Virus record (IMG/VR): IMGVR_UViG_3300034102_000850
Span: 1 to 26,731 of that record
From: a virus
DNA: 26,731 nucleotides
Strand: one strand, 5' to 3'
Each line of letters starts with the position of its first letter. Positions within the stretch are counted from its first letter, which is position 1. The notes under the pieces are model-generated. The model did no database searches. It had not been told where the DNA came from and worked only from the letters and a program-made list of their open reading frames with translations. The translations under genes and the position numbers were made by a program. Positions 1 to 18,300 of the stretch are shown one piece after another.

Positions 1-830
1 GCTGTGGTCTGTGTAGTACCATCTGGGAATTCTAAACTGCCATCACCGCGGAAGGTCCATTCGGATGTATCAGTATCTTCTGAATCAGTGCGATCATATG
101 ATATAATTCGCAGGCCGCTACGATTATTATCTTGCCACGCTAATTGAATTCGACCTCGATTTAGTTCTGTTTCATCATTGGGATTGCCAGTGTAGGCTCT
201 AATGAGACTAGTGTCTTCACCAAGAGGCATATTGATCCAACGCACACTAGTATTGGCACTTTCGGTACTGTCTATGTAAATGTGTCCGCCATCGACGCCG
301 CCGACAACAATGTCGCCAGGAGCGGTTAATGTACCAGTCTGTCCAAAGTTCCAAGTATAACTACTGCTGTCCTCACTGTTGACTGTGATGTTGATGCTAT
401 CGTTGCTGGTTAGGCTATCGCCTGCGCCACCGCCAATTTCACTGCCCGCATCGCTGTCATCAGGGTCTTCCGCTTCGTTTTCTTCACCAGGATTGACAAC
501 TTTAACAGCACGAAGTTTACCAGCAACGTTGGTAAGTTTAATATTGTCAAGATAGATACTGCCACCTGCGGTGTAAACGTGTCGCCATTGATTTGTAGGA
601 CTACCTAGGTCTCTGGTGTTATCAGTATCTGGAACGATATTAGTTGCTACAGACGAAAAATCAGTAACTTTGTCGTCCCAGTATGCTAGACTATTCCAAG
701 CAGTTGTACCTGTACCTATTTTAAGTTTATTATTGGTTATATCAATACCAATCTCGCCCTGTGCCAATGTTGGGTTTGTGCTGGTCCAGTTTGTCGCTGT
801 GTCGCGTCTTAGTTGTATTCTACGTGCCAT
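1..830 (-). CDS. Phage tail fibre protein, 3' end outside the window
   Basis: The frame is open from the ATG at 830 down to the left edge, giving 276 codons without a stop, so the C-terminus is missing. The start MARRIQLRRDTATNW, then a GEIGIDITNNKLKIGTG stretch and AW..LAYW, is the short N-terminal domain that begins many myoviral fibres (like the N-terminal domain of the major tropism determinant). It is followed by a DLGS..QWRHVY segment near residue 75, an acidic Glu/Asp-rich linker around residues 111-125, and two copies of a W-x-F-x-x-x-G-x-L-x-x-P motif. The fold and repeats suggest a trimeric beta-rich fibre for host contact; that role is inferred. GGAG lies 6 nt before the ATG, inside the end of the upstream 60-codon gene, with one base between stop and start. 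The two genes are probably translated from one late transcript. Receptor specificity cannot be read because the tip is absent. Confidence 0.82.
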   Translation of the reverse strand, partial: MARRIQLRRDTATNWTSTNPTLAQGEIGIDITNNKLKIGTGTTAWNSLAYWDDKVTDFSSVATNIVPDTDNTRDLGSPTNQWRHVYTAGGSIYLDNIKLTNVAGKLRAVKVVNPGEENEAEDPDDSDAGSEIGGGAGDSLTSNDSINITVNSEDSSSYTWNFGQTGTLTAPGDIVVGGVDGGHIYIDSTESANTSVRWINMPLGEDTSLIRAYTGNPNDETELNRGRIQLAWQDNNRSGLRIISYDRTDSEDTDTSEWTFRGDGSLEFPDGTTQTT

Positions 831-831
831 A

Positions 832-1014
832 TTATGCTCCGCCTCCATCTATGTTGTTTTCGTCATTAAAAATAGTAATAGCCGCTCCACCGTCTAGGAC
901 GATGATTTCATATATTTCGTCAAAATTTTGATTTACTTTATTAAACGCATCACGGATGATATCTCCGTCTTTGGAGTTTGCGCTAGTACCAATGTTTATC
1001 GTTTGTTTTGTCAT
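832..1014 (-). CDS. Small fibre-associated protein with IGTSANSKDGDIIRDAFNKVNQNF motif
   Basis: This is a 60-residue protein. Its N-terminal half matches the motif IxIGTxANxxxGDxxRxAFxKVNxNFxExY, which in marine myoviruses usually opens a larger fibre or whisker protein; that is family knowledge from memory. Here it stands alone and ends in a Gly-rich tail. The motif region looks helical, so it could be an attachment or oligomerisation segment; that is inference. The codons of the Gly-rich tail (GGAGGCGGAGCA) also form the Shine-Dalgarno sequence of the fibre gene that starts one base after the stop, which supports coupled translation. Its own ATG is preceded by AGGA at 8 nt and by a late-promoter-like GATAAATA. 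It could be an accessory attachment subunit or a split-off fibre N-terminus. Confidence 0.72.
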   Translation of the reverse strand: MTKQTINIGTSANSKDGDIIRDAFNKVNQNFDEIYEIIVLDGGAAITIFNDENNIDGGGA

Positions 1015-1071: not shown

Positions 1072-2625
1072 ATGCCACGCTTATCACTTTACCGCCCCGA
1101 AAAAGGCTCTGATTACAAGTTTATTGACCGCACAGTCTACGAGATGTTTCAAGTAGGCGGTGTAGACGTCTTTTTGCACAAATATATTGGTCCTGCTGAT
1201 CCCAGTGATCCCAACAAGGCCATGGGAGAAACCACTATTCAGGATGTGCTGTTTTTAGAAAATCGCGATAGAAAATACGATGCAGATGTTTATACTCTAC
1301 GTGGCGCTTACAACATTCAAGATACAGATTTTAACCTCAGTCAATTTGGCTTGTTTTTGCAAAACGACACAGTATTTCTAACAGTACACATTAACAATAG
1401 TGTAGACACCATTGGTCGAAAAATAATGAGTGGCGATGTGGTAGAATTGCCTAATTTAAAAGATGAGTATGCGTTAAATGATTTTAAAAGTGCTTTAAAA
1501 CGATACTATGTTGTAGAAGATATTAATCGAGCCGCTGAGGGATACAGTGCTACTTGGTATCCGCATCTATATAGACTAAAATTAAAACCCATTGTTGACA
1601 GTCAAGAGTTTAAAGATATCCTTACTCGTCCAGAAGATGAAGATTTATTTGCCGGCGACTGGAGTCGAGAAAGAACATATTATGCTGGCGAAGTGGTAAG
1701 ATACAATGGAACTTTGTATGTGGTCAAGCCAACTGTTGGTGCTGAGGGTACACTATTAGAGCCGCCAAATCTTCAAGTTTGGAGTCCGTACAACGACAAC
1801 ACTGTACGAGATTTAATCAGCACCTATGAAAAAGAAATGCAGATCAATGCCGGCATTATTGCTGAAGCAGAATCCGATGCAGAACTAAGCGGATCAGATA
1901 CCACGCACTTTTATACATTGTCTGTTGACGGAGAAGGTAGATCGGCAGTAGAAACCGCAGACACTGATATAAATGTAGCCAGTGCATTTGATATTAGTAA
2001 TACATCAACACCTCCGGTAAGAGATGGATACAAAGGTTACTTGTTGGAAGATGGGATTCCTCCAAACACTTCTGATGGGCAGTTTGGATTTGGTATACAA
2101 TTTCCCCGTGGGCCAGTCAATGGTGATACATTTTTACGCACAGACTATTTGCCCAACAGATTGTTTAGATGGAACGGCAACAGATGGATTAAACAAGAAG
2201 ACAATGTACGTATGACTCTTTCCAACACTGATGATCGTAAAACACTCAAGACTTCCTTTATTAATAACAGCAATCTCAGTGGAATTTCTAAAATTAAAAG
2301 CGATGTTATTCGCATTGACGAAAACAGAAATCCGCTATTCGAACCCGATAAAGGAACTGTTAACTTTGTTGTTAGCAACAGTTCATTGTTTATATTAACA
2401 GATGTACCCTATCAAGAAAACATGTTTGTAGAAGTATGGCTAGACGAATTAAGTAAAGCCACAGAAATCACGTTATCAGATCAGCAGGGATTTTTAGCAT
2501 TTACAGTTAATCATCCAATTTTAGAAAGCACAATTATACGTTGGACAGCCTTTGATGAAACTGTTGACCAGCGACAAAGTCTAACCAAGGCTTTGAGAAA
2601 AATTAAACCAACGGCGGATAATTAA
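1072..2625 (+). CDS. gp14: Neck protein, T4 gp14-like, with C-terminal extension
   Basis: Residues 1-175 follow the pattern of T4 gp14: a helix with G-V-D-V-F near residue 30 (gp14 has R-G-V-E-C-Y), a DVLF segment, LSQFGLFLQND near 89-99 (gp14: FSKFGMQVQDE), GDVVELP near 121 (gp14: GDLIYFP), and a Y-P-x-x-Y-R-L-K strand near 163. gp14 closes the head portal below the collar and helps join head to tail. At 517 residues it is about twice T4 gp14 (about 256). The extra part holds a chitin-binding-like segment, DWSRERTYYAGEVVRYNGTLY, at 195-216, and a conserved block YLPNRLFRWNGNRWIK at 359-374. The next gene is gp15-like, as in T4, which supports the call. The ATG was chosen as the first in frame after the box; there is no visible Shine-Dalgarno sequence. 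Confidence 0.82.
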   Translation: MPRLSLYRPEKGSDYKFIDRTVYEMFQVGGVDVFLHKYIGPADPSDPNKAMGETTIQDVLFLENRDRKYDADVYTLRGAYNIQDTDFNLSQFGLFLQNDTVFLTVHINNSVDTIGRKIMSGDVVELPNLKDEYALNDFKSALKRYYVVEDINRAAEGYSATWYPHLYRLKLKPIVDSQEFKDILTRPEDEDLFAGDWSRERTYYAGEVVRYNGTLYVVKPTVGAEGTLLEPPNLQVWSPYNDNTVRDLISTYEKEMQINAGIIAEAESDAELSGSDTTHFYTLSVDGEGRSAVETADTDINVASAFDISNTSTPPVRDGYKGYLLEDGIPPNTSDGQFGFGIQFPRGPVNGDTFLRTDYLPNRLFRWNGNRWIKQEDNVRMTLSNTDDRKTLKTSFINNSNLSGISKIKSDVIRIDENRNPLFEPDKGTVNFVVSNSSLFILTDVPYQENMFVEVWLDELSKATEITLSDQQGFLAFTVNHPILESTIIRWTAFDETVDQRQSLTKALRKIKPTADN

Positions 2626-2627
2626 TT

Positions 2628-3989
2628 ATGCAATGGTTCTATGACGGACAAATAAGAAGATATGTAGGACAAATTGTCCGAATGTTAAGCGGGTTTAGAT
2701 ATCAGAGTCTAGACGGTAAACAAACCACCGTGCCTGTGATGTACGGAGATTTAACTAGACAAGTAAGTAACATTATTAGAGAAAACTCGGAAAATAAAAT
2801 TCCCAGTGCTCCTAGAATTGCTGTTTATATCAGCGACTTAGCCATGGATAAAACTAGGCTAGCAGATTCTACTCACGTTAGTAAAATTCATATTAGAGAA
2901 CGTGAAAAAGTTTTTGACAGTGCTGGCAATTTTGTAGAATACGGTGTCACACAAGGCAGCGGATACACAGTAGAACGTCTAATGCCTACACCATATAAAC
3001 TAACTGTTAAAGCCGATATATGGAGCACTAACACTGATCAAAAATTACAAATTTTAGAACAAATTTTAATGTTGTTTAACCCTAGTTTAGAATTACAAAC
3101 ATCTGACAATTACATAGACTGGACCAGCATCAGTGTGCTGGAAATTACTAATATTCAGTTTAGTACAAAAAATATTCCAGTAGGTGTTGACAGTGATATT
3201 GAAATAGCATCTATAACATTTGAGACTCCAATTTATATCAGTCCTCCTACTAAGGTCAAACGATTAGGTGTTATTCATGATATTATTATGAATATACACG
3301 ATCAAAACTATGACATAGATGTCACAGAAAAAATCAATATAGGTGGATTTGATATTTTTGTTTACTATAACACCGCCACTGGACAATACAATGCAGAGTT
3401 ATTAGATCCTAAAACTGCACTTAGTACATTAAATGAAGATGCTGTCACAGCGTGGCAGAAAAATGGCGCCGATTTAAATTGGAGAATATTGTTAGATCAA
3501 TATGCTGGAAAGTTTAGGGCTGGTAGTACACAAATTTTCTTAGAGCAAGCCACTGGAAATTATATTGTTGGCACTGTGGCATTGAATCCTGCAGACGAAA
3601 CAAAGTTAGTTATTAATTTTGATCAGGACACTTATAATACCAATACTCCTATTCTGTGTACACAAACAGGCATTACTAGAACCAATGTGGATGCAATCAT
3701 AGATCCCGAAACTTATAATCCTGGAGCAGTTACAGGAAATCCTAGATATCTAATATTAAATAATATTGGAAATAATACGTCAGCATGGGGTAACATTATT
3801 GCTAAAGCCAATGACATCATTGAATGGACTGGCACGCAGTGGGTGGTTGCACAAGCCTCTGAAGAAATTGATGAAATAATTTATACTACTAATCTTAGAA
3901 CCGGAGTACAATATAAGTTCGAGGACGGCGAATGGACTCGTGCATTTGAAGGCGAATATCAGAAAGGTTCCTGGCGAATTGTGCTTTAA
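2628..3989 (+). CDS. gp15: Tail sheath stabiliser/completion protein, T4 gp15-like, with C-terminal extension
   Basis: The first 220 residues follow T4 gp15: FYDGQIRRYVGQ at 4-15 (gp15: FYNSSFRRYATL), TVPVMYGD at 34-41 (gp15: RVPITYAS), PRIAVYISD at 62-70, PTPYKLTVKADIW at 120-132, LQILEQILMLFNPSLEL at 140-156 (gp15: IVEQILPYFQPHFN), and FETPIYISPP near 198-207 (gp15: FEVNGWMYPP). In T4, gp15 caps the finished tail and docks it to the neck. This protein has 453 residues against about 272 in T4. The extra C-terminal half (about 225-453) is beta-rich and ends in a YKFEDGEWTRAFEGEYQKG segment; its job is unknown. Two bases separate it from the gp14 stop. The only purine-rich motif, GGCGGA, lies far upstream, so translation is probably coupled to gp14. 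Confidence 0.87.
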   Translation: MQWFYDGQIRRYVGQIVRMLSGFRYQSLDGKQTTVPVMYGDLTRQVSNIIRENSENKIPSAPRIAVYISDLAMDKTRLADSTHVSKIHIREREKVFDSAGNFVEYGVTQGSGYTVERLMPTPYKLTVKADIWSTNTDQKLQILEQILMLFNPSLELQTSDNYIDWTSISVLEITNIQFSTKNIPVGVDSDIEIASITFETPIYISPPTKVKRLGVIHDIIMNIHDQNYDIDVTEKINIGGFDIFVYYNTATGQYNAELLDPKTALSTLNEDAVTAWQKNGADLNWRILLDQYAGKFRAGSTQIFLEQATGNYIVGTVALNPADETKLVINFDQDTYNTNTPILCTQTGITRTNVDAIIDPETYNPGAVTGNPRYLILNNIGNNTSAWGNIIAKANDIIEWTGTQWVVAQASEEIDEIIYTTNLRTGVQYKFEDGEWTRAFEGEYQKGSWRIVL

Positions 3990-3992
3990 ATA
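3985..3992 (+). promoter_or_regulatory. Possible late-promoter-like box TTTAAATA over the gp15 stop codon
   Basis: TTTAAATA contains the gp15 stop TAA (3987-3989). A start at the usual distance (near 3998) would leave a 4-nt leader before the Nudix ATG at 4002. It is the weakest of the six boxes, because the Nudix gene can also be read from the gp14 promoter and TAAATA arises easily in AT-rich DNA. Confidence 0.3.
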
Positions 3993-4001
3993 AGTACTGT
4001 T

Positions 4002-4445
4002 ATGACCAGCATTAGAGAACAGATTGTTTGTAGCGGCGCACTATTTTACGCCAAGTCTACACGAAGATTCCTACTGTTACAAAAAGCCACAGGCAAGCAT
4101 CGCGGAACATGGGGACTTGTTGGTGGCACTAATATCGAAGGAGAAACTGCTTGGCAAGGCCTTCAACGTGAAATAGCAGAAGAAGTCGGCAACATACCTG
4201 CTATTAAGAAAACGATTCCTTTAGAAACATTTGTTAGCAATGACAGCGTGTTTAACTTTCACACATATCTTTGTGTAATCGACAACGAATTCATTCCCAC
4301 ACTAAGTAGCGAACATCAAGGATGGGCATGGTGTACTGTAGACGGCGCACCAAAGCCGTTACATCAAGGATTGCGTAGTAGTTTTAGTAACAAAACAATA
4401 CGTACAAAACTCCAAACAGTTTTTGATATAGTTGAGTTGATATAA
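4002..4445 (+). CDS. Nudix hydrolase
   Basis: This is a 147-residue protein with one Nudix domain. The Nudix box GX5EX7REUXEEXGU is visible at residues 42-64 as GTNIEGE, seven residues, then REIAEEVGN. The metal-binding REXXEE glutamates are all present. The last position, usually hydrophobic, is Asn, with Ile next to it. TWGLVGG in front of the box and HTYLC and WAWCT strands after it are typical of the fold. Family members hydrolyse a nucleoside diphosphate linked to another group, such as dNTPs, NADH, ADP-ribose or capped RNA ends; the substrate cannot be read from the sequence. T4 also encodes a Nudix enzyme (NudE), but at a different locus. The gene lies 12 bases after gp15, on the same strand, and its stop lies inside the terminator hairpin. 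No Shine-Dalgarno sequence is obvious. Confidence 0.93.
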   Translation: MTSIREQIVCSGALFYAKSTRRFLLLQKATGKHRGTWGLVGGTNIEGETAWQGLQREIAEEVGNIPAIKKTIPLETFVSNDSVFNFHTYLCVIDNEFIPTLSSEHQGWAWCTVDGAPKPLHQGLRSSFSNKTIRTKLQTVFDIVELI

Positions 4446-4472: not shown

Positions 4473-4847
4473 TTACATACGTCCTACAACGACTTCAATA
4501 ACTCCACTGTCTCCGTCAAAGTCTTCCAATGCTTTACCAATTACTTGGCCCATCTTTGGATCTTCTTCTGCACGAGCGCAGCCATTGCCTGCGGCAACTA
4601 ACATGTCTCCCTTACGGATCTTACCAGTTACCTTACATGGTACACGACCTTGTAGTGCTAGAGCAACTACAGTTTCGCCTTTTAAGCCGTCATTCATCAG
4701 GTGTGCTGGATTTGTAGAAACAACACCTGCTACCTTACGTGTTCCGTCTAGGGCCAATGTTACTTCTGCATCACCGCCAAACATAACAACAGTACCTTCT
4801 TCGTACTTGACGTCGCCTAGATAGTTTTCTGCCAAGTCAGCGTAACG
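4473..4847 (-). other. Conserved C-terminal domain of the giant fibre
   Basis: Residues 3473-3596 read RYADLAENYLGDVKYEEGT, then FGGDAEVTLA, VAGVVSTNPAHLMN, VALALQGRVPCKV and KGDMLV. This module closes many marine phage fibres. It resembles the C-terminal domains of tail spikes that act as intramolecular trimerisation chaperones (peptidase G2-like in pattern), some of which cleave themselves. Whether this copy cleaves cannot be seen; there is no recognised catalytic pair. Confidence 0.55.
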
Positions 4848-7800
4848 TGCTGTTGTTGCTGTACCGCGGAACAAGTTAGCATAAATGTCACTTGAACCAT
4901 CACGCAATGCAACTGTGTTTGCACTACTTGCTGTGTTACCTGCATAGTCTGTAGAACTTACACGGATGTTAGTTGCGGCACTTGCTAGTCCACTTAAACT
5001 TGCAGTAATTGTACCAGCACTAAAGTTACCAGAACTGTCACGTGCAACAACTTTACTTCCAGTATTTGCGTTTGTAGCATCGACTGCTAATGTACTTGCG
5101 GCACTGCCGTTGAATGTTGTACCAACACTCCAAGTTAAGAACGAACCTGCTGTTAAACTAAACAAGTTGCTGCCTAACGCCACTCCACTAATTGTGCTGT
5201 TGGTTAGTTTAGCATTAGCAATGCTACCTGCCAACATTGTGTTAGACACACTGCCAGTATCGCCTGTTGTAACAATTGTACCACTTACGTTTGGTACTGA
5301 TAGTGTACGTGTTACGTTAGCAGTTACACCACTTACGTCAAAAGCCATTTTCTTAGTGTTATCCACATCGTCCTGGAACAATGTAGAACTATCAGTAAAT
5401 GTCTTATTAGTTAATGTCTGCGTACCTGTAGTTGTTACAACACCGCTAGTAATACTAATTGTACGTGCGGAACCACCGTTGAATGTTGTACCGCTGTCTA
5501 ATTGTAAACCAGTACCAACTGTCAAGTTGTTGGCTAAGTTGGCTGTAACAATTACTGTGTCTCCTAGGTTAACCAGTGAGCCGTTCAGTGTAATACTGCT
5601 ATTTGCCAATTTGTTATTTGGAATAGCACCAGCCAACATGTTGTTAGATACTGTGCCAGTATCGTTAGTACCAATTAGCGTACCGCTTGTTGGCAATGTA
5701 ACGCTAGTAGTATTTGATACCGCAATAGTTGTATTGAACGAACCAGAAGTAGTTAAATTACCACCTAGTGTAATTGTTCTACCTGTATTGGCAACACCTG
5801 TACCACCATACTGTCCTGCAATTACGTTTGCAGTCCATGTACCGCCTGTTAGTGTACCTACGCTGGTCAAACTAGAACCTACCACTGTACTTCCTAGTGC
5901 AGTAGCACTTAGCACAGCAACGTTGTTGACTTTGTAAGTCTTGCCTGTTGGAATATTAACGTGCTCGTTCAATGTCCAGTTTGTATTTGTTACATCCCAT
6001 AGAATTGTATGGTCAGTAGTTCCTTTTAGGATAATACCACCGCCGTCTGCTACAGCATTAGTTGGTGTTGAACGTTGTGCCAACTGAATAGCATTGTCTG
6101 CAATAGTAACTGCTGTAGCACTTAGAGTTGCATTAGTACCACTTAGTGTTACGTCGCCGTTGACTGTTAAATTATTTCTAACAGTTGTTGTACCAACCAA
6201 ACTAGCACCAATTGCAACAGCAGTACCTGCTCCTGCAATGTTAACAGTGGTTGCATTAGCATTAACTAAATTAAATGTTGTAGCAGTTGTAGTAATGTCA
6301 CCGCCGTTTACAGCAATGTCGCCGGTGCTGGTAATATCTGTTGTAACGTTAATACCACCGGCTGCGGCTGCACCAAGTGTTAGGCTACCAGCACTATTAA
6401 TTGTGATTGCACTGTTTGTACCAGTAGGGCTAAAGTTAATAATCTGTTGGTTTTGTGTAGCACTTAAATTACCAACTAATGTTGTTTGTACACCAAGTGT
6501 ACCAATAGTAGTTACACCAGCAGGCTGAATGCTTACTGAACCTGTACCTCCTGGACTTAGTGTAATAACAGCATCGTCGCCTGTAATACTTAAACTGCTG
6601 TTGAAACTAATTGCTCCGCCAACAGTTAAGTTACCACCAATGAATGCATTACCTGTTGCTCCAATACCACCTGTGACTTGAAGAGCACCAGTTGTGTTGC
6701 TGGTACTTTGAGTGTTACTGTTAAACAATGCACTGCCCGCAGTAACACTACCTGCTAGATTCAAGTTAGTAGTCCATGAAGGAATAGATCCGTCTGAACT
6801 TAAAACGCTACTAACTCCGCCAATTGGTAATTGAGTTAAACTTCCGCCAGCACCTGCATACAACAAGTCGCCTTGTAAGTATGTTGTTAATCCTGTACCA
6901 CCTTTTAGAACTGGCACTGCCTTGCTGAAGTTATCTGGATTAGTATAATATGTTCCTGGCTGACCGCCTAAGAAGCCGGCATCAATAACACCCGGTTTGA
7001 TACTTACGTTACCAGTATCTGCTGGAATGTTTGTTGCTTTACCTACTGCAAATTGACTCTTGTCGAATGATGACACACCTGGATTTGTAAAGTTAGGAGT
7101 TCCACCATCACCGTCTACCTTGTCAACGTCCAATATTGGAATGTTGTAATAGATAGTATCTCCACCATCTGTATATGTGTCGCCAGATAAACTAATTGCA
7201 GTGTTAGAATTTTTACGAATACCTTGAACAGCAAATGCAAAACTGCTGTCTCCGCGGAGGAATGTTTGTGTATTAGCAGTGCCTGCGCTAGCCAATCTAC
7301 TTGTAGCAAATACGCCCGACACAATATTACTTGCATCAAGACTGCTAACACTTACCGTTCCCCAGTTTGCAGATAAACTACTACTGTTGTTTACAGTTGC
7401 AGTAAATGCAACGTTTTGTGTTGTCAATGTAGCCGAACTTGAACCTACATCTGTAAATGTTACTCTGCTAGTAGTTGTACCGCCAACACTTGCCAGTGCA
7501 TTTGTTCTGCCAGTGTGTAGAGTAAATGTATTAGTACTTACGCTACCAACAAAATAATAAGAATCAGCAGTTAATCCTGCTGGCAAGTCTGTGCCTTCAA
7601 CATAAACAGGATCGCCTGTGGTAAATCCGTGTCCAGCCTTGTATAGGAAACTTAGACTTGTAGAACCAATACTCACTGTGTTGCGTGTTAGAGTATGAGT
7701 ACCTGTAGAAGTTGCTGTTAATAATACTTGATCCGCAGGATTCAATGCATAGTTAGTGTATAACTGTATTGCATTTGCATTAATAACTTTAATAAAGTAA

Positions 7801-10800
7801 GCACGATTGTTGGTTAATCCTCCAATGCTTGTGTTACCTTGATTGCTATATTGTAGGATATCACCGTTAGTTAATCCGTGACTGGTTAAAATAATATTAC
7901 CAGTACCTGTATTAACATCTGTATTTCCACTAAAACTAAATGTAGTAAACGCGGCAAGGTCGCTTATGGTTGTAACAGGAGCATTATCGTCTTCAAAATA
8001 GTCGTTGACTGCACCTGTAGCGTTAAATTTAGTTTTACTTCCAACTAAATCAACATACAGTCTTGTATCTGCACGGTTAGCAGTAATTTGAAATCCGCTG
8101 CCTGTACCACCAATTGTGGCTGCACTCGCACTTAATACGTTACCACTGGCATATCCAGAACCTCCGCTGACGATGGTTACGTCAGTGACAGCACCGTTGG
8201 TAACAGTGATATCTGCCGTAGCACCAGTGCCGCTGCCACTTACGTTAGTTAACGCAACACCAGTATAAGTTACGCTACCGCTTCCTGGAGTGTATAAACT
8301 TCCACCTAATAAACTACTTAGGTTTAGTCCATATAATACGCCTGCACGATATTCTGTAATTTGGCCTTGTGCAAGACCAATTGCACTGGTAATTGTATTA
8401 CCGTTGGTAAAATTATATCCTGTGCCACTTAGTAATAAGAACTGACTGCTAGTGTCGTTGTTCAAGAAATAGTTATCAACAATTTCTGCAACAGCAGTTA
8501 ATCCACTTGGATACACTCCTGTGACCACGGATCCATTCTTACGAATAGTTTGTGTGGCGTTGTCTTCTGTAAATGTACCGGTTACACCATATAGTGTTAC
8601 ACTAGTCCCGCTAGTGACTGCTTCTTTAACACGACCCGAACCGGTTGTTCCTGTTTGTGTAATTAGATCTCCAACAACTGCGGTTAATGTGCCGCCAGTT
8701 AAAGTTAGAGTTTGTTGTTGATAAGTTTCGCTGGCATTATCGCCGTTAAACACTTCTACTGTTGGTATTTTTTCGCTTAATAATAAACGGCCACCAAATG
8801 TTGAAGTTGCATAAGTTGTAACACCTCTTAGTGGAGGAATCAAGTCAACGTTAATCTGTCCAGAACTATTTAACTGAACAAGTGCTCCTGCAACTGAGTT
8901 GGTAGAAACGTTTTTATCAAGTACACTACCCAATCTGTTGTTAATAAAACTACGAATAGCCTTTTGTGTAGTCAATCGACTGTCACTAGCGCCGCCAATT
9001 TCATTATCACCTAAGCCAGTATCGTTACTAATACTACTAATTTCAATGCTAGACAATGATAGTCGTAGTACGTTCAACTGTCCAACAGTAACTTCAGTAC
9101 GGAATGTAATCTTACCAGTGTTGTTCTCAGCCTTAATGAAGTCACCGACTAAGAAGTCACCTGCTTCGTTGGTACCTGATGTGTAAACTCGTCCTGGTAA
9201 TTCAGTATACTGCTGGTAAGCAAGAATGGTCTGTCCACCGTTTTGTGGCAATGCATTATAGTCTGTACCTGCGCCTGCAAATTCCCATGTATGTGAAGAA
9301 CTGTTTAAGATACTTGGACGATGGTAATTACACTTAAATCCGATAGTACCGCTTGGGTTTTGTATCTGACTTGCAGTTCTAGTACTGTTTGTTTTTACAA
9401 CTGCGGTGTATAAATCTGTACGATCTTCTACAGATACTATTGGTATGGCAGTGTATGTGCTTTGATCTGCTGTAATTGTACTTAATAATGTAAATTTAAT
9501 ACGCTGTTGTTCTTCGCCAATTGTTGTCAATTCGTTAGAAACAACTAGTTCTCGTGTTGCCGGAGTCCAACTTAGTACGTAGGCATTGTTTGTGAATGCT
9601 CCAGTACTACCAGTAATTTGAGAACCGATTGCAAATACATAGTCAGGGGTTGATTCAGGCAGTGTTAATGTTTGATAACTGTTGTGACTGCTGACGACAG
9701 ATTCAACAAAGAATTCTTCGACGTTTTTAGCAATACGATGTGTACCTACACCGCCAGTTTGAATATCTGCAAGATATGCTAGTCCGTTGTCATTGAATAA
9801 TTGAATTGTATTGGCACTAATAACTTTAACAAAGTAGATACCGTTATCAATTAAACCTAAAATACTAAGGTTACCAGATACAGGCAAGTCTGCATAGTAG
9901 TAGACACTATCGCCATTTAATAATCCGTGATCTGGAATAGTAATGATATTTGATACGATATTAACTGCACCGCCTACTGCAAATTCTAATGGCAGTGCTC
10001 CAGTGCTAATTGCACCGTTGCTGGAAATATCAATTTCATTTTCTAGTGCTCTAACCGCAGTTACAGTTGTAACACTACCTAGTACACCGTCACCGCCTGT
10101 CTTGGTTAGATATTTGCCAGTGACGATGCCTGTGGTGTTTACACCAGTTAAGGTTGCAGTGTAAGGACCGCTGCCTGCAATATCTGTAATAACACCAGTA
10201 CGATCTGCAATTGTATCAAACGCACGAGAGTCAAAAGACAACTCTGTGCTGGCTGTTTTAAAGTTACTGGTTACGTCTACATCGGTACTAGCATTGCGGA
10301 ACTTCAATACATATTGTGCTACCGGTTCGCGTTCTGTTCCTAGTGTTGTTAATGTAATTCGGCCGCCGTTGGTGCCTGTTGCGGCAACAAATCCTTTGTC
10401 AAATGAGAATACGTTCGGACTGAAACCGCTTGATCGTAGTGCGTACAAGCCAAAGTTGGTGGCTGAGTTAGTAATAGATAGGTATCCGCCTGACTGTGTA
10501 TACGAACCGTTCAAACAGAAGATCTGGAAACACGACACGATCTGCGCATAACCATCGTTGGTTACTAGCCAACCTGTACCACCGAATGAAACCATGGTAA
10601 AGGCGTTGGCAACCATGGACTTACCTTGTGGAGGTGTTGCACCATCCACTGGATTTTCCTGTTCAATTTCAAATCCTGGAGGACTAATGTTAGGTTCTCT
10701 AATCTTTTCACCGTCTACCCAAATACCATTACCACCTAAGAACGAAATAATAGAGCAGTTTTGAATATACGGTGATAGTGAAATTTGTGGTTTGTTTCTA

Positions 10801-13800
10801 CGTAGACCAAAGTAGCCTGAACGATCAACTGTGTCATCTAGTGGGTCGTCAAACGCCACGCACCAGTTAAATGTATAGTTAGGAACTAAGTTTTCGTCTA
10901 GTCCATCTCGGAAAGTGAACCCAGTCATGTAAGCACCGTTACGAATACGGAACATATCCTTACCTGCGTTCAACGGACGAATAACCACAGAACGTAAACT
11001 GTCACCTACAACAGAAACTTTGTCTGGAATAATAATTGGGTTATCAATGTAAAAGTCGCCTGCGGCAACCTGAATAGTGATAGGAACTTCTTGGAAACTG
11101 TTGGCAACAACTGTAGGTGCAGGTTGTCCTTCAAAAATACCAATAATAGTATTGAATAGTGTTTCAATGTCAGTTAATGCGGCTGCGCCAGATATACTAG
11201 GATACTTAACTTGTGTTGGTTCTGCGCCAATAGGCTGGAAGAATGGGCTGATGGTTTGATTTTGTACAATCTGTTTAGCAATTCTTTTAGCATACTTGTT
11301 GGCTTCAGCCGTTTCAAATCGTTGATCTGAAATAACCAATGCCGCGCTGGTATTGCCGGCTTCGTAGTAAGCAAGTCCGGCTTCAACGCTTCGTTCGTTA
11401 CCGCCAAGAATAAAGTCAAGAATTACTGCATCAAGAATCAATCCTGTATCACGAGAACAAGTTGCGCTGTTGTAAACAAATCCTGTAAATGTATCTGCAA
11501 TATAATCTACAACGTTGTCGATAATTGCATTGCGGTTAGTTACTTTAAATGCTGTAAATGGGCCTGTTATCGCGCCAACTTGCCAACTTAGGTCAGGTTC
11601 TACTTCTGCTGGAATAGTTCCAATGCCGTTGATGATAACTCCTGAAATAATACCTAGTAAACCAGTTAATGTACCTGCTTCAACAGTTGTGGCATTACTG
11701 CCACTAGTGACCTGTGTTACCGCAGTTTGATAAACATCTGTCACTGTTACACCGCGAACAACCTTGTCTGTAAGATATGCTAGGCGATCAATGGCTTGAG
11801 ATGTAACACTTTCTTGATTAGGAACTTGTGTGTCGTATGTACTACCATCTAATGATATCCAATAAGCATTGGCCGCGCCAACTGTTGCACTATTTCCGCC
11901 GTATAATACGTCATAAGTAATTGCGTCAACAATATACCCTACATCTCTTGCACATTTTGCTTCGTTATAGGCAAAATCTTGGAATGTTGTTTGTACAAAG
12001 TCGATTGTGTCGTCGATGATTGTTTGACGATCTGCAACTAGTTCTAATCTTGCGTTCTGTAATCCAGTAGTTGCCCACGACAAATCTGGGTTAATGGCTG
12101 TTGGTAATGCTGATAAACCGTTTTCTACAACGTTTGTTATGATAGTTAGTAACGAGCCTGCGGTTGCTGTTTCAATAGAACTTGCAGATATTGCACCTAA
12201 AGACTGACTTGCACCACTGTATGCTTTAATAAGACTAATGTTAACAATGTCAGCAGTTGTAGCACCTGATCCCCAAGTATCTGTCACTGTTTTGCTAACT
12301 GTCAAGGTGATTGTATTTGAACTAATAGTAGTGTTAGTAACACTTACTTCAATGCCGTTGACATAAATTTCGTAAGGTTCAGTGCCGTCTAGTGCAACAA
12401 AGTCTGCTAAAAATGCTGTTCCGTTGCTATTGCCAGTGGCTTCTAATATTAAGGTATTACTACTCCAACTGGTTATTGCGAATCCATTAGTAGATGCAGA
12501 TCCTTTTGTATAAACTGTACGATCTAGACTTGGGGTTACTGCTACTCCAGTTAATACTTCGTCGACAATAGTAGACAAATACTCAAATGCTTTTTTAGTT
12601 TGAAATATTTGATCTGGTACTTGTGTTACTGCGCCCACCCAGTATGCATTTGCGGCTGTACGTGTAGCAGTGTTACCGCCATATAATACGTCATAGGTCA
12701 GTGCATCAACAATATACTTTACATCACGTTCGCATTTTGTTTGATTGTAAGAGAAACCATCAAACGTTGTGGTCAAGTATGCGCTGGTGTTGGTGATAAT
12801 TGTTGGTTTTGCTGTTGCTAAAGAATCTGTAGCCGCCACAATGTTTACATTTACCCATCCAAAACTTGGGTAAGTTGGTGTTGGTAATCCTGCTGGAGTT
12901 TCAGCAGTGATAACATCTATAATCAATTGTAGATCTGCAGAAACTAATGTTGCTTCTGCACTAGTACCTACTGCGGCTGATCCAACACCTGATTGTGTTT
13001 CAATATTTCCAGATGTTACTGTTACTGCCTGTCCTTGTATAATCTGAGATAGAACAGTGTTTAATCGGTTATAGGCTGCAATAGTTCCATCTTTTTGACC
13101 TGCGCCTAATTGTCCAAGTGTACCTACAAAGTAAGAATTAGCGGCAACAATACTTGCAGAATTTCCACCATATAATAAGTCATAGGTCAGTGCATCAATA
13201 ATGTAGCCAACGTCACGAGCACATTTTACACTGTTGTATGTAAATCCATCGAATGTGCTGCCAGGTGCGGCTGTGGCAATTTGATTATTAATCCATGCAA
13301 CAATTTCTGACTTGGCAAAATTTCGGTTTCCAATAAGTTGATTTTTAGAATTAATAACTGCTTGGGTTGCATTTGCTGGGTTGGTAAATGTTAAAGCATC
13401 TGCAGATGTATCTGTGGACACTACTCCGTTTCTAATAATATCGACGACTTCGTCAAAGGCAGCACCGACGCGAGTTACAGTAGTTCCGTTTATACTTACT
13501 GCGGCTAAGGCAGCGGTTTTTGCAAATTCAATACCTGCAATAGTTTGTATATTTTGTCCACTTAGTACATAAGAACTGTTGGCACGTTGATAGGCTAGGC
13601 CTGCTGTTACAGCATTAAAGTTTGTACCTAAGGCAGCATCGTAACGTGCGGCATCAATAATGATCCCAAGATCACGTTCGCAGGTTGTTTTTACAATACC
13701 ATTATATGTGTAACCTACAAACTGTTTGTTAATATATGTACTAACTGCATCGGCTATGAAATTACGATTGGCCTGTAACTGATCCTTTGCATCTATTTCA

Positions 13801-15263
13801 TCTTGAGTAGCATTACTAGGTGCGTTAAAAATAATAGCATCAGTTGAATCGTCACCTTCAGCGTTGGCAATAATGTCTAAGATTTCGTCAAATGCTAATG
13901 TAACTCTTTGCACTGCTGTAGCATCGCCGGTGACACTTAATAATGCTTGACTCTTAGCAAATTGGAATGCCGCAACAGTTTGTAATTTTTGATTATTTTC
14001 TAAGTAGTCTGCATTAGCACGTAGATAAGCACGGCCTGCAACAACAGCATTATAGTTTGTGTTTAGTACTGCGTCAAAACCTGCGGCGTCTAATAACAGT
14101 CCTGTGTCACGAGCACATTTTTCTTCGTTGTAGGTAAAGTCAGAATAGTTAGTATTAATCCAAGCAATAACTTCTTCTTTTAAGAAGTTTTTATTTGCCT
14201 GTAATTTATCTTTGGCTGCAATTTCTTCAGTGCTTGTTCCAGCATTACTAGGATATACGATTGCGTCTGTACTGTCGTCGCCGATGTCGTTTTCTAAAAT
14301 GTCAACAATTTCTGCAAATGCTGTGTTATAGCGACTAAGTGCAGTTGCGTTGGTGCTAACAAACGATAAACCTTCTTGTTGCGCTTGAAGAATTGCACTC
14401 TTAGTTTGAAGAATTTGATCTTGGATAACTGTGTAGGCATTTTCACGACGATATGAAAGACCTGTAGTCACAGCCTTGTAGTTTGATCCTATTGCAAAAT
14501 CTAATGCTACTGCGTCAATAATTAGTCCAAGATCTCTGCGGCACTTTGTTTCGTCGTATTGGAAATTTACAAAGTTAGCATCGATCCACTTAATAACTTG
14601 ACTTTGGATAAAACTACGGTTGGCTTCTAGTAAACGCTTGGCATTAAATTTGCCTTGTCCTGGATCAACTAACGGACGTAGACCTAAACTTGCGGCAATT
14701 TGTGCGGCACGTTTTAAACTACGCACAGGTGCGTTAACACCATCGTTGTCATCACTACCTTTTCTGTCTGAGACATAAACACGGTTACCGCCAAAACTAT
14801 CTGGACTACTCCACTCTAAGTTACCTTGGCCGTCTAGTGCTAATACGCTTTGGTCGATAGGCTGGAATGTTGGCAATTTGATTTCATAACTAAAGTCAAC
14901 ATTGTCTGGACCTTTAATAGTTACGGTGTTTGCATTCGCGGCATCATTAAAAATCAAACCTTTTTGATTTTTAATTCTTACATCGTTGACAAATTCTGTT
15001 CCGTCTTCTGTAACTTCGAATTGCGTTACATTGTCAACTTTATTAATAATTTTACTAGGTGTAGTACCGCCGTCGTCGTTTGTGGTAACACTGGTGTCAC
15101 GTTCAAACGTTGTTTTAGTAATATCAAGTATAGTATCGTCTTCTTTCTTTAGAAAGACTTTACCGTCAGCAGTATTCATCGCTAGTTCGCCTTGAACCAA
15201 CGACCCTGGACTTGGTGTTACACCCGCATTGTTATTTCTCTTAAAAAGGATTCTTGATGCCAT
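4473..15263 (-). CDS. Giant tail fibre protein, 3596 residues
   Basis: Domains in order: an N-terminal fibre start domain (1-50, MASRILFKRNN..GELAMNT..GKVFLK), similar to the start of the fibre at 830; RVYVSDRKGSDDNDG (161-175), a common lead-in to beta-helix repeats; seven KCxRD repeats (209-1330); a beta-helix-like region (1395-1625, VSVVGDSLRSVVIRP, GMTGF-type turns, YIQNCSI); a block HTWEFAGAGTDYNALPQNGG..GRVYTSGTNEAGDFLVGDF (1991-2042) also known from marine T4-like fibres; three HGLxxGDxVxY repeats (1764-2593); one ~53-residue beta repeat (2987-3038); GTQTLTNKTF (3280-3289); and a closing YADLAENYLGDVKYEEGTVV domain (3474-3596). The likely role is a long trimeric fibre or tail-surface protein for host recognition; this is inferred from the architecture. 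The ATG has GAGGA 5 nt upstream and a late box at 15292-15299. The end is set by a terminator. There is no frameshift over 10.8 kb, so it is under selection as one protein. Confidence 0.9.
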   Translation of the reverse strand: MASRILFKRNNNAGVTPSPGSLVQGELAMNTADGKVFLKKEDDTILDITKTTFERDTSVTTNDDGGTTPSKIINKVDNVTQFEVTEDGTEFVNDVRIKNQKGLIFNDAANANTVTIKGPDNVDFSYEIKLPTFQPIDQSVLALDGQGNLEWSSPDSFGGNRVYVSDRKGSDDNDGVNAPVRSLKRAAQIAASLGLRPLVDPGQGKFNAKRLLEANRSFIQSQVIKWIDANFVNFQYDETKCRRDLGLIIDAVALDFAIGSNYKAVTTGLSYRRENAYTVIQDQILQTKSAILQAQQEGLSFVSTNATALSRYNTAFAEIVDILENDIGDDSTDAIVYPSNAGTSTEEIAAKDKLQANKNFLKEEVIAWINTNYSDFTYNEEKCARDTGLLLDAAGFDAVLNTNYNAVVAGRAYLRANADYLENNQKLQTVAAFQFAKSQALLSVTGDATAVQRVTLAFDEILDIIANAEGDDSTDAIIFNAPSNATQDEIDAKDQLQANRNFIADAVSTYINKQFVGYTYNGIVKTTCERDLGIIIDAARYDAALGTNFNAVTAGLAYQRANSSYVLSGQNIQTIAGIEFAKTAALAAVSINGTTVTRVGAAFDEVVDIIRNGVVSTDTSADALTFTNPANATQAVINSKNQLIGNRNFAKSEIVAWINNQIATAAPGSTFDGFTYNSVKCARDVGYIIDALTYDLLYGGNSASIVAANSYFVGTLGQLGAGQKDGTIAAYNRLNTVLSQIIQGQAVTVTSGNIETQSGVGSAAVGTSAEATLVSADLQLIIDVITAETPAGLPTPTYPSFGWVNVNIVAATDSLATAKPTIITNTSAYLTTTFDGFSYNQTKCERDVKYIVDALTYDVLYGGNTATRTAANAYWVGAVTQVPDQIFQTKKAFEYLSTIVDEVLTGVAVTPSLDRTVYTKGSASTNGFAITSWSSNTLILEATGNSNGTAFLADFVALDGTEPYEIYVNGIEVSVTNTTISSNTITLTVSKTVTDTWGSGATTADIVNISLIKAYSGASQSLGAISASSIETATAGSLLTIITNVVENGLSALPTAINPDLSWATTGLQNARLELVADRQTIIDDTIDFVQTTFQDFAYNEAKCARDVGYIVDAITYDVLYGGNSATVGAANAYWISLDGSTYDTQVPNQESVTSQAIDRLAYLTDKVVRGVTVTDVYQTAVTQVTSGSNATTVEAGTLTGLLGIISGVIINGIGTIPAEVEPDLSWQVGAITGPFTAFKVTNRNAIIDNVVDYIADTFTGFVYNSATCSRDTGLILDAVILDFILGGNERSVEAGLAYYEAGNTSAALVISDQRFETAEANKYAKRIAKQIVQNQTISPFFQPIGAEPTQVKYPSISGAAALTDIETLFNTIIGIFEGQPAPTVVANSFQEVPITIQVAAGDFYIDNPIIIPDKVSVVGDSLRSVVIRPLNAGKDMFRIRNGAYMTGFTFRDGLDENLVPNYTFNWCVAFDDPLDDTVDRSGYFGLRRNKPQISLSPYIQNCSIISFLGGNGIWVDGEKIREPNISPPGFEIEQENPVDGATPPQGKSMVANAFTMVSFGGTGWLVTNDGYAQIVSCFQIFCLNGSYTQSGGYLSITNSATNFGLYALRSSGFSPNVFSFDKGFVAATGTNGGRITLTTLGTEREPVAQYVLKFRNASTDVDVTSNFKTASTELSFDSRAFDTIADRTGVITDIAGSGPYTATLTGVNTTGIVTGKYLTKTGGDGVLGSVTTVTAVRALENEIDISSNGAISTGALPLEFAVGGAVNIVSNIITIPDHGLLNGDSVYYYADLPVSGNLSILGLIDNGIYFVKVISANTIQLFNDNGLAYLADIQTGGVGTHRIAKNVEEFFVESVVSSHNSYQTLTLPESTPDYVFAIGSQITGSTGAFTNNAYVLSWTPATRELVVSNELTTIGEEQQRIKFTLLSTITADQSTYTAIPIVSVEDRTDLYTAVVKTNSTRTASQIQNPSGTIGFKCNYHRPSILNSSSHTWEFAGAGTDYNALPQNGGQTILAYQQYTELPGRVYTSGTNEAGDFLVGDFIKAENNTGKITFRTEVTVGQLNVLRLSLSSIEISSISNDTGLGDNEIGGASDSRLTTQKAIRSFINNRLGSVLDKNVSTNSVAGALVQLNSSGQINVDLIPPLRGVTTYATSTFGGRLLLSEKIPTVEVFNGDNASETYQQQTLTLTGGTLTAVVGDLITQTGTTGSGRVKEAVTSGTSVTLYGVTGTFTEDNATQTIRKNGSVVTGVYPSGLTAVAEIVDNYFLNNDTSSQFLLLSGTGYNFTNGNTITSAIGLAQGQITEYRAGVLYGLNLSSLLGGSLYTPGSGSVTYTGVALTNVSGSGTGATADITVTNGAVTDVTIVSGGSGYASGNVLSASAATIGGTGSGFQITANRADTRLYVDLVGSKTKFNATGAVNDYFEDDNAPVTTISDLAAFTTFSFSGNTDVNTGTGNIILTSHGLTNGDILQYSNQGNTSIGGLTNNRAYFIKVINANAIQLYTNYALNPADQVLLTATSTGTHTLTRNTVSIGSTSLSFLYKAGHGFTTGDPVYVEGTDLPAGLTADSYYFVGSVSTNTFTLHTGRTNALASVGGTTTSRVTFTDVGSSSATLTTQNVAFTATVNNSSSLSANWGTVSVSSLDASNIVSGVFATSRLASAGTANTQTFLRGDSSFAFAVQGIRKNSNTAISLSGDTYTDGGDTIYYNIPILDVDKVDGDGGTPNFTNPGVSSFDKSQFAVGKATNIPADTGNVSIKPGVIDAGFLGGQPGTYYTNPDNFSKAVPVLKGGTGLTTYLQGDLLYAGAGGSLTQLPIGGVSSVLSSDGSIPSWTTNLNLAGSVTAGSALFNSNTQSTSNTTGALQVTGGIGATGNAFIGGNLTVGGAISFNSSLSITGDDAVITLSPGGTGSVSIQPAGVTTIGTLGVQTTLVGNLSATQNQQIINFSPTGTNSAITINSAGSLTLGAAAAGGINVTTDITSTGDIAVNGGDITTTATTFNLVNANATTVNIAGAGTAVAIGASLVGTTTVRNNLTVNGDVTLSGTNATLSATAVTIADNAIQLAQRSTPTNAVADGGGIILKGTTDHTILWDVTNTNWTLNEHVNIPTGKTYKVNNVAVLSATALGSTVVGSSLTSVGTLTGGTWTANVIAGQYGGTGVANTGRTITLGGNLTTSGSFNTTIAVSNTTSVTLPTSGTLIGTNDTGTVSNNMLAGAIPNNKLANSSITLNGSLVNLGDTVIVTANLANNLTVGTGLQLDSGTTFNGGSARTISITSGVVTTTGTQTLTNKTFTDSSTLFQDDVDNTKKMAFDVSGVTANVTRTLSVPNVSGTIVTTGDTGSVSNTMLAGSIANAKLTNSTISGVALGSNLFSLTAGSFLTWSVGTTFNGSAASTLAVDATNANTGSKVVARDSSGNFSAGTITASLSGLASAATNIRVSSTDYAGNTASSANTVALRDGSSDIYANLFRGTATTARYADLAENYLGDVKYEEGTVVMFGGDAEVTLALDGTRKVAGVVSTNPAHLMNDGLKGETVVALALQGRVPCKVTGKIRKGDMLVAAGNGCARAEEDPKMGQVIGKALEDFDGDSGVIEVVVGRM
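6150..6305 (-). repeat. Single GGDITT...TTTVRNN module in the giant fibre
   Basis: Residues 2987-3038 (NGGDITTTATTFNLVN, TTVNIAGAG, then GTTTVRNNLTVNGD) are nearly the same as the first copy in the 2310-residue protein (about residue 990). They also match the two copies in the 404-residue protein. This is one exchangeable beta module shared by three neighbours. Confidence 0.8.
7485..9974 (-). repeat. Three HGLxxGDxVxY-type repeats in the giant fibre
   Basis: Related segments of about 60-80 residues lie at 1764-1844 (HGLLNGDSVYYY, GIYFVKVISANTIQLF), 2448-2526 (HGLTNGDILQYS, AYFIKVINANAIQLYT) and 2531-2593 (HGFTTGDPVYVE, YYFVGSVSTNTFTLHT). The first two are about 600 residues apart, the last two adjacent. 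They look like small beta domains; a GGSGY glycine-rich segment sits between the first and second. Confidence 0.7.
10389..11081 (-). other. Right-handed beta-helix-like region of the giant fibre
   Basis: Residues 1395-1625 contain ITIQVAAGDFYIDNPIIIP, VSVVGDSLRSVVIRP, MFRIRNGAYMTGFTFRDG, YIQNCSIISF, GNGIWVDG, WLVTNDGYAQIVSCF and LSITNSATNFGLYALR. This is the strand-turn pattern of pectate-lyase-like helices found in phage spikes. No catalytic site is recognised, so it may be purely structural or bind glycans. Confidence 0.7.
11274..14639 (-). repeat. Seven tandem KCxRD repeats in the giant fibre
   Basis: Residues 209-1330 hold seven copies of a domain with signature YN..KCxRDxGxIIDAxxYD, followed by G.N and an A..Y strand. 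The cysteines are at 241, 383, 528, 681, 844, 1104 and 1269, so the spacings are 142, 145, 153, 163, 260 and 165. Each copy starts with an alpha-helical NR.FI...I.WI stretch. Copies 1-3 have DA..(L)D.AL.TN-type endings while copies 4-6 have DALTYDLLYGGN, so two subfamilies are present. The long interval holds an extra beta-rich insertion. Confidence 0.88.
12216..12530 (-). other. Inserted beta-rich segment between KCxRD repeats 5 and 6
   Basis: Residues 912-1016 have no match to the repeat. They start near TPSLDRTVYTKGSAS and include a TEPYEIYVNGIEVSVTNT strand pair and TITLTVSKTVTDTW. The insertion accounts for about 95 of the 260 residues between the cysteines at 844 and 1104. Confidence 0.55.
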
Positions 15264-15319: not shown

Positions 15320-18300
15320 TTAAAATGTTCCGCAGTCGATGACATCGGTCCAAACTGGTACACCTTGAGCAGTAGTGGTTAAAATTGCATTACTAGTTTG
15401 CTGATTGGTTCCAGTATATGGAGTTTCATAATCGCTGCCTGCTGTACTCTGTATGGCATCGGTACTATTTCCGTACAATATACCTCTAGCATTAAATTGG
15501 CCGGCACCAGTACCACCGCTTGATACACTTAGTTCGTTTTCGAACAATACTGTACCGCGCAATGTCAACTGGTTAGCACTTACGTTACCTTCAACATTTA
15601 AGTTTTCACCTACGCCCATACCTCCTTGAACTACCACAGTACCTGTGGTAGAATCAACACTACTAATACCAGCAGTGAATCTAGTTTGAGCATTTGCTTC
15701 TAAACTTGTAAATCTACCTGAGGCTCGTGTTGTTGCACCAATGTTAACGTTATTAATGTTGCCAAGTGTTGAAGGATTTAAAATAAATCCACCTTGTGGT
15801 TCAATGATAACACGACCAGTACCCTGCGGACTAATAACAAAATCGTTGTTTTCACCACTGGTGTTTAAAGATGTTAATGTTAAGTTTCCGTTTACTGTTA
15901 AGTCAGAATCTAAAATTACATCGCCGGTAACTGTTAAATCTGTAGCGACGGTAGTTAGACCACCAAGACTTCCCATGTTAATGCTGGTTGCGGCGCCACC
16001 AAAGTAAATTGTTTCCGCTGTAGTATCTGCAAGGAAGAATGTTGTATCTGTTACAGCCAATGTTGATACGCTACTGTCGCTGGAACCCACTGTAATTTGT
16101 CCTGCTACTGCAAGGTTATTTCTAACATTAGTAGATCCACTTAACGCACCAATGTTAACTGTTGTGGCATCACCACCAAAGTTAATTGTTTGGGCAATGT
16201 TGTTTAATAGATCAAATACTGTGCTTTCTGTTTCAACACTTTGTCCAACGTTTGTACCGCCTTGGAAATTAAAACTTGTACCGTCAAAACTAATTGTACC
16301 ACCGGCTAAGTCAATTGTACCGCCGCTTAGATATAAATCACGGAAACGATTTGTTGAACTACCTAAGTCGTAGGATACATTATCTGCTGGAAGAATATGG
16401 TTACTTACAGTAGTGATTCCAGTAACATTCAATGCACCTGCAATATTAGTTGCACTGCCAGGAGCAGCCACGTTAACAGTGTTAGCACCACCGGCAAAGT
16501 TTACTACAGTAGCATTGGTATTAATTAAATTAAATGTTGATTGATTAGTTGTTAAGTCGCCGCCTCTAATTTCAACGTCTGCATTTGCTTGTAGAGCATT
16601 TTTAACAATAGTAGTGCCAGTGGTTGCACCAATATTAACAGTTGTACCGGCACCTGCAAAATTAACTGTTTCTGCAACAGCATTGATTAGGTTAAAGGTA
16701 GTTTGATTTGTTGTTAGGTCGCCACCTTTGATTTGAACGTCTAGTTCAAAAGTGGCCTGGCCGTCAACTGTCAATGCATTGTTAACTGTGGTGGTACCAG
16801 TGGTAGAACCAATTTCTACAACTGTGGCAGCACCGCCCATGTATAAGTTTTCTGCTGTTGTGTTAGCAAGATAGAATGTTGTATCTGCTGAATCAATAGT
16901 TGAAGTCGATCCTGCCGAACTTCCTACTGTTATTTTTCCATCTACATTCAGATCATTCTTAACGTTGGTAGAACCACCTGTACTACCAATGTTAACCTGT
17001 GTGCCTGCGCCTGCTAAGTTTAGCGTAGTAACAGTGCTGTTTAACAAGTTAAATGTTGTTTGACTTGTGGTAATATCACCACCGTCAATGTTTACATCTA
17101 AGTCCACATCCAAGTTGTTTCTTACAGTTGTTGTGCCGCTGGCTGCACCAATTTGTAATGTTGTTGCCGCATCAGCAAAGTTGATAGTTGTAGGTGTTTG
17201 TAGTAAATTAAATGACGTCTGATCAGTGATAATGTCACCACCTTTAACAGTGATATCACCATTAAAGTTTACCATGGTTCCTGCAAAATCTACAGTACCT
17301 GCTGAGTTACCAATGTTAGTTGCCAAGGCAGCGCCAGCAAAGTTAACAGTGGTTGCTGTGGTGTTAAACAAATTCAAAGTTGTGTTGGTAGTACTGACAG
17401 TGTCACCGTCAACTTGTAAATTTTCGCCGGCAACAAGATTGTTGTTAACAGTGGTTGTGCCTAGGGTAGAACCAATACCCACTACACTTGCACTGCTACC
17501 TATGTTAAGAGTAGTAGCACCGCTGGTTACAAAATTGAATACGCTTTGATTAGTGGTTATCTCTCCGCCGTTGACTGCTAGATCGCCGTCTACTTGTACA
17601 ATTTGATTACGTAATTGAATAGTGCCTGTGGTTGCACCAACAACAACACTAGTTGCCGCTTGACCGATATTCAATGTGGTAGCAGTATCATTAATTAAAT
17701 TAAATGTTGTTTGATCTGTTAATAAATCGCCACCTTGTATTAAGATATCAAATGCAAATGTAGCACTGCCATTAACTTGTAGATCGTTGGCAGTTACATC
17801 TCCGTTGATGGCATTGATAATAACGCTACTTGTATCGCTGAATACACTACCTTTAATGTCTGCAACAATACCTGTGGGTACTTCTAACATGTTATTAATT
17901 GTAGTAACGCCAAATACACTACCAATGTTCAATGTGTCTGCGGCACCGGCAAAATTAATTGTGTTGGCTGTATTATTAACTAGATTCAATGCGATTGCAT
18001 TAGTATCAATGTTGGCTGTTGCTCCAGTGAACACACCGTTAAGCGTAACATCACCATTGGCTTGAAAGTTATTTCTTACAGTAGTTGTACCGTTTGCCGC
18101 ACCTAACGTATCTACAGCACCAATTTCTATTGTAGTTGCATCTCTAGCAAAGTTTACAGTTTCAACATACTGATCAAGTATACTAAATGTTGTTACACCG
18201 CCAGTGATAATTGGAGCAGTTCCTTGATATGCAAATGTTGTAATAACACCAGTGTTGTCACTTGGTTCAGTACCAACACCACCTGGTAAAACTTTAGGTG

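Follow-up and report, generated by a model that had tools for sequence, protein, structure and literature searches.

Architecture of the locus

The window, i.e. the whole stretch of 26,731 nucleotides analyzed here, is a 26.7-kb virus record that is probably a fragment. Positions 4473-15263 hold a single open frame of 3596 aa on the minus strand, with an ATG start and no internal stops, and the plus strand across the same interval is crowded with stops. The uninterrupted 3596-residue frame described in the first-pass annotation was therefore borne out and assigned to the minus strand. Its features are as follows.

4473-15263 (-): whole giant tail fiber gene, 3596 aa; single frame, phrog_5342, five full-length relatives
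14784-15263 (-): N-terminal fiber start, residues 1-160, putatively the attachment end; relatives 76-96% identical
14679-14783 (-): residues 161-195, initial strand region of a pectate-lyase-like beta-helix, apparently interrupted by the module array; alignment with the neighboring frame P0002
14253-14678 (-): module d1, residues 196-337, Cys241 codon at 14541-14543; module HMM, C-x-R-D
13818-14252 (-): module d2, residues 338-482, Cys383 codon at 14115-14117; AlphaFold (340-496) and Foldseek
13359-13817 (-): module d3, residues 483-635, Cys528 codon at 13680-13682; C-x-R-D, module HMM
12870-13358 (-): module d4, residues 636-798, Cys681 codon at 13221-13223; NCBIfam C-phycocyanin alpha, phmmer
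12090-12869 (-): module d5, residues 799-1058, Cys844 codon at 12732-12734; C-x-R-D, module HMM
11595-12089 (-): module d6, residues 1059-1223, Cys1104 codon at 11952-11954; AlphaFold (1061-1230) and Foldseek, PF00502 E = 0.01
11064-11594 (-): module d7, residues 1224-1400, Cys1269 codon at 11457-11459; C-x-R-D, module HMM
10104-11063 (-): beta-helix continued, residues 1401-1720; BLASTP to P0002, E = 9e-7
4974-10103 (-): repetitive beta-type shaft, residues 1721-3430, as suggested by sequence pattern; phrog_5342 matches
4476-4856 (-): C-terminal closing domain, Peptidase_G2-like, residues 3470-3596; PF11962 in three of seven homologs

The fiber-type N terminus, the pectate-lyase-like beta-helix start, the long repetitive beta-type regions and the conserved C-terminal domain proposed earlier were all upheld, as were the seven KCxRD domains, whose C-x-R-D motifs lie at residues 241, 383, 528, 681, 844, 1104 and 1269 (Lys precedes Cys in five of seven). 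These tandem modules span residues 196-1400 at intervals of 142-165 aa, with one of 260 aa; module d5 has the longer spacing and an extra beta-type stretch. Joined together, residues 161-195 and 1400-1560 match the uninterrupted beta-helix start of P0002 with an alignment score of 83 (shuffled maximum, 46), which suggests that the array interrupts the beta-helix within its first turn. Because the score comes mostly from the second part, for which BLASTP alone gives E = 9e-7, the insertion point is an inferred one. Residues 1401-1600 are among the best-conserved stretches across relatives.

P0002 itself (15320-22252, minus strand, 2310 aa) has baseplate-wedge-type PHROG matches, the contiguous copy of the beta-helix start, a CBM_5_12 domain (residues 17-47) and a ConA/LamG-like lectin domain (residues 422-561, E = 5.6e-17). 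At 3-848 (minus strand) lies the start of another fiber, truncated by the end of the window; it contains a major tropism determinant N-terminal domain (Mtd_N, E = 3e-16). Genes for a gp14-like protein, gp15 and a NUDIX protein (1072-4445, plus strand) are opposed to the fiber genes, whereas in P-HM1 they are co-directional; the opposed arrangement is repeated in five relatives (L023, L024, L026, L027 and L028), which argues against misassembly.

The gene was found as a single frame in five independent metagenomic contigs (3594, 3713, 3900, 3905 and 3840 aa). Among three relatives compared, divergence at codon positions 1, 2 and 3 was 0.09-0.22, 0.05-0.15 and 0.34-0.48, respectively. Since position 3 diverges several times more than position 2, the frame is under selection as a protein, and the assembly error that the first-pass annotation had named as evidence against its reading is rejected. 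In one close relative (L005, 2772-9695) the frame stops at 2307 aa while the homology extends beyond it, perhaps owing to a frameshift or a sequencing error. A DNA-level search of the phage collection gave no match.

A giant tail fiber of T4-like cyanophages

The best family for the 3596-aa frame was phrog_5342 (tail fiber, E = 3.3e-211), and tblastn against annotated phages retrieved 162 records, named nearly all as cyanophages and every one below 60% identity. Giant genes of P-HM1 (11.0 kb) and S-SCSM2R (10.2 kb) lie shortly ahead of gp13-gp14-gp15. The gene order in the window resembles theirs though the strand differs, and its tail fiber cluster is likewise near neck and sheath-completion genes (gp15 = PF16724, E = 1.5e-21). 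Homologous genes of 9.7-10.5 kb are present in S-PM2, S-WAM2, S-RIM32 and Sf-FR1, while ACG-2014d and S-SSM4 have single 20-kb genes (about 6800-6900 aa) that also contain the module. The size that had been presented as remarkable was therefore dropped as the finding: T4-like cyanophages commonly have single frames of about 10 kb, and frames of 20 kb are known. The idea of a giant fiber assembled from blocks did hold, given the family match and the synteny with P-HM1 and S-SCSM2R, and comparison of homologs revealed the expected shared ends and variable middle, i.e. the ends are conserved and the middle gains or loses modules (seven or nine).

When S-PM2d was grown with its host in chemostats, its ORFs of 3338 aa (the S-PM2 homolog) and 3779 aa acquired non-synonymous mutations (PMC9910659). 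These sizes match the two module-bearing frames of S-PM2, the 3779-aa one by size alone, and mutation of the S-PM2 homolog in host co-culture fits host contact. Virion proteomics is available for S-SM1, S-PM2 and Syn9 (PMC3037559). The gene product is best read as the giant host-contact fiber of a T4-like cyanophage, which by analogy would be present in the virion.

The C-terminal domain is common to phages of Agrobacterium, Pseudomonas and Campylobacter, and its homolog in PA5oct is annotated as detected by MS. PF11962 (Peptidase_G2) matched three of seven homologs (best E = 2.3e-4), with the window's own domain below threshold, and a PDB search with this domain returned nothing firm, the preneck appendage protein 3gqh scoring only E = 0.2. 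The domain may serve in trimerization or self-cleavage.

The C-x-R-D modules are related to phycobiliproteins

The identity of the KCxRD domains had been missed in the first-pass annotation. When residues 161-1400 were compared as a single sequence with the PDB, 22 of 23 matches were phycobiliproteins. With a profile of 26 modules from the window, metagenomic phages and isolated phages, 57 of 58 matches (E ≤ 10; best E = 7e-5) were phycobiliproteins or engineered derivatives, and the aligned span covered helix B and the chromophore helix E. For module d4, phmmer aligned phycocyanin alpha at E = 0.003, and the NCBIfam C-phycocyanin alpha model matched residues 662-702 at E = 2.9e-6, below its cutoff. 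In bits, the models of light-harvesting phycobiliproteins proper scored 16.2 (PF00502; curated cutoff 22.2) and 27.4 (TIGR01338; curated cutoff 269). Reciprocally, an HMM of 18 cyanobacterial phycobiliproteins matched only module ORFs among 545 phage frames (best E = 5.8e-9), and the module HMM, searched against 1216 frames of cyanobacterial loci, gave 94 matches, all phycobiliproteins; these loci are rich in phycobiliproteins because they were fetched by phycobiliprotein queries, and what makes the search informative is the absence of any match to another frame. Profile-profile comparison using hhalign yielded a collinear alignment of 93 columns (probability 95.3, score 49.1) that placed module columns 2-95 on phycobiliprotein columns 50-151. 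At 13% identity, a phylogeny could not reliably show whether the phage modules branch within phycobiliproteins or next to them.

The fold was predicted with AlphaFold, template-free and from phage sequences only, for d6 (residues 1061-1230; pLDDT 73) and for d2 (residues 340-496, alignment of d1-d3-type modules; pLDDT 65). Since the d6 alignment also held d1-d3-type rows, the two models are replicates that are not fully independent. For each model, Foldseek listed 50 PDB matches, all of them phycobiliproteins or engineered derivatives, with query-normalized TM-scores of 0.54-0.68 and a best E of only 5e-3. The Big Fantastic Virus Database (BFVD) contains fiber models of S-PM2, S-WAM2, S-H9-1 and other phages with a matching fold. 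Neither predicted module has X-Y helices (no extra pair precedes the helix at 15-26), and the profile alignment begins at column 50. Taken with the searches, these models make it very probable that the modules have the phycobiliprotein fold and are homologous to phycobiliproteins. The new identification of the KCxRD domains as phycobiliprotein-fold modules with a bilin-attachment motif is well supported.

Conservation of the bilin site, distribution and co-occurrence with CpeT

Phycobiliproteins have their bilin site at CxRD, as do some bilin biosynthesis-associated globins (BBAGs) (PMC10151467). Across 105 non-redundant modules the Cys of this motif is kept in 97%, Arg in 84% (Asp in 11%) and Asp in 99%; Asp at Cys+14 (92%), Asn at +20 (94%) and Tyr at +30 (98%) are also conserved. 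The motif is present in all seven window modules, and its Cys residues make up 7 of the 14 in the protein. In P-HM1 the modules have C-x-D-D instead of C-x-R-D; its host genus, Prochlorococcus, has no intact phycobilisomes (PMC3037559). Two modules lack the Cys.

A three-module stretch of Syn9, used as a query, matched 359 of 50,697 phage records; apart from one "Marine virus", every one is named as a Synechococcus phage, a Prochlorococcus phage or a cyanophage. Of 23 cyanophage records searched with the module profile, 19 were positive, and profile searches of T4, KVP40 and Pelagibacter phage HTVC008M found no modules. CpeT, called as PF06206 at the family cutoff, was present in 18 of the 19 module-bearing cyanophages (three of these reach the cutoff only when their pieces are summed) and in none of the four module-less ones (P-SSM2, S-SM2, S-CRM01 and S-SSM7), giving Fisher p = 5.6e-4 with kinship ignored. 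S-SSM7 was chosen because it is listed without cpeT (PMC3037559); absence of modules was predicted beforehand and then confirmed. In S-RSM4, S-WAM2, S-PM2, Sf-FR1, S-H9-1 and S-RIM32, only a few kb separate cpeT from a giant module-bearing ORF. In S-RSM4 (L161:1423-10345), CpeT comes just before a 13.4-kb module-bearing short tail fiber gene, with tRNAs and an HNH gene between them. Modules without CpeT occur in DSL-LC03, a phage isolated from fresh water that is one of the two closest tblastn relatives, and CpeT was not found in the window's own family, whose searched records are all fragments. T-type lyases act on another Cys position in phycocyanin (PMC10452541). Co-occurrence did not support bilin reductases as the linked pathway, P-SSM2 carrying pebS without modules; S-SSM7, which lacks modules, also carries pebS (PMC3037559, Table 3).

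Discussion

The computations established a giant frame whose modules are in effect confined to cyanophages, are homologous to phycobiliproteins, share their fold as predicted, conserve the Cys-Arg-Asp triad and co-occur with CpeT. These findings led us to hypothesize the following arrangement. The beta-helix near the N terminus is apparently broken by seven helical modules in tandem, which belong to the bilin-binding globin superfamily. A bilin made by the host or the phage would most likely be attached covalently to the module Cys while the fiber is assembled in the cytoplasm; host lyases would do this, joined in many phages by phage CpeT. If the modules are indeed loaded before lysis, the virion fibers would carry tetrapyrroles, and the pigment might stabilize the modules, shield against light damage or tune adsorption to light. 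That the modules carry a covalent bilin seems to us somewhat better than an even proposition, and we lean just as slightly toward the whole arrangement, i.e. a fiber with an array of phycobiliprotein-fold modules in its beta-helix that is bilin-loaded during assembly. A stronger version, in which CpeT (and in some phages also bilin reductases) loads pigmented tail fibers derived from an antenna-type globin, so that the virion senses or screens light, is rather unlikely.

The alternative that survives best is that the modules have the phycobiliprotein fold by descent and are free of pigment, serving as domesticated spacers or protein-binding domains in which CxRD is retained because it aids folding or binds some other ligand. 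This is a real possibility to which we give less than even odds. It would suit a structural protein that functions outside the cell, the C-x-D-D motif of P-HM1, the two Cys-less modules, the lack of strict co-occurrence with bilin reductases, and DSL-LC03 with its missing CpeT; however, Cys and Asp are kept almost invariably in modules that are otherwise often only about one-quarter to one-third identical, and CpeT both co-occurs with the modules and lies near them. Furthermore, most modules have a single Cys (counted for the window) and hence no disulfide partner within the module, which also speaks against a pigment-free role.

It is much less probable that the likeness to phycobiliproteins comes from a short helical C-x-R-D motif that arose by chance or convergently, and that AlphaFold, whose training included phycobiliproteins, replayed a memorized fold. 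The weak E-values of single modules and the pLDDT of only 65-73 could be read in this way, but the profile-profile alignment is collinear across the module and exceeds all 200 column shuffles (≤23.7) and the reversed profile (9.1) even when C-x-R-D is masked (26.9), reciprocal searches match nothing else, and the two predictions concur. Finally, misassembly or the fusing of neighboring genes, at which the shorter frame of L005 might hint, was ruled out by the five full-length relatives under purifying selection and by the syntenic 10-11 kb genes of isolated phages.

In the open-access papers that we searched, no description of a link between phage tail fibers and phycobiliproteins was found. 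The present analysis places a predicted phycobiliprotein-type fold in a putative virion protein, across hundreds of cyanophage genomes. An earlier study calls the role of phage cpeT unresolved; it also regards what phage pcyA and pebS do as a mystery, because Prochlorococcus has no intact phycobilisomes (PMC3037559). The bilin-loaded fiber favored here would make the modules a candidate acceptor for the products of phage bilin genes; pigmented fibers, if real, would explain what these genes do and perhaps also light-dependent adsorption. Several marine cyanomyoviruses do adsorb in a light-dependent manner (PMC2984593), and the modules occur in proteins of the kind that mutates in co-culture with the host (PMC9910659).

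Comparison with known systems

The closest known counterparts are the giant fibers PHM1_097 (P-HM1), p091 (S-PM2) and S-SCSM2R_112, which share with the window gene a size of about 10 kb, a single frame, homologous beta-rich regions, modules of the C-x-R-D type and a position in the tail fiber cluster, which in P-HM1 and S-SCSM2R is one before gp13-gp15. Compared with other giant fibers of phrog_5342, the window protein is less than 60% identical and has seven well-preserved tandem modules, and the genes for its gp14-like, gp15 and NUDIX proteins are on the opposite strand. The C-terminal region resembles phi29 gp12 and the Peptidase_G2 autocleavage domain (PF11962) in being the closing domain of an appendage protein, the profile similarity being weak and the window's own domain falling below the profile threshold. 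BBAGs, compared here by their described features, are also relatives of phycobiliproteins outside the antenna, some with C-x-R-D, and they bind bilins without lyases (PMC10151467); unlike the phage modules, they are cellular proteins of bilin gene clusters. With phycobiliproteins themselves (PF00502, phycocyanin alpha) the modules share a predicted helical fold, the C-x-R-D bilin site and the collinear alignment to columns 50-151, whereas they lack the N-terminal X-Y helices, stand in tandem within a fiber and have conserved residues of their own, namely those at Cys+14 (Asp), +20 (Asn) and +30 (Tyr).
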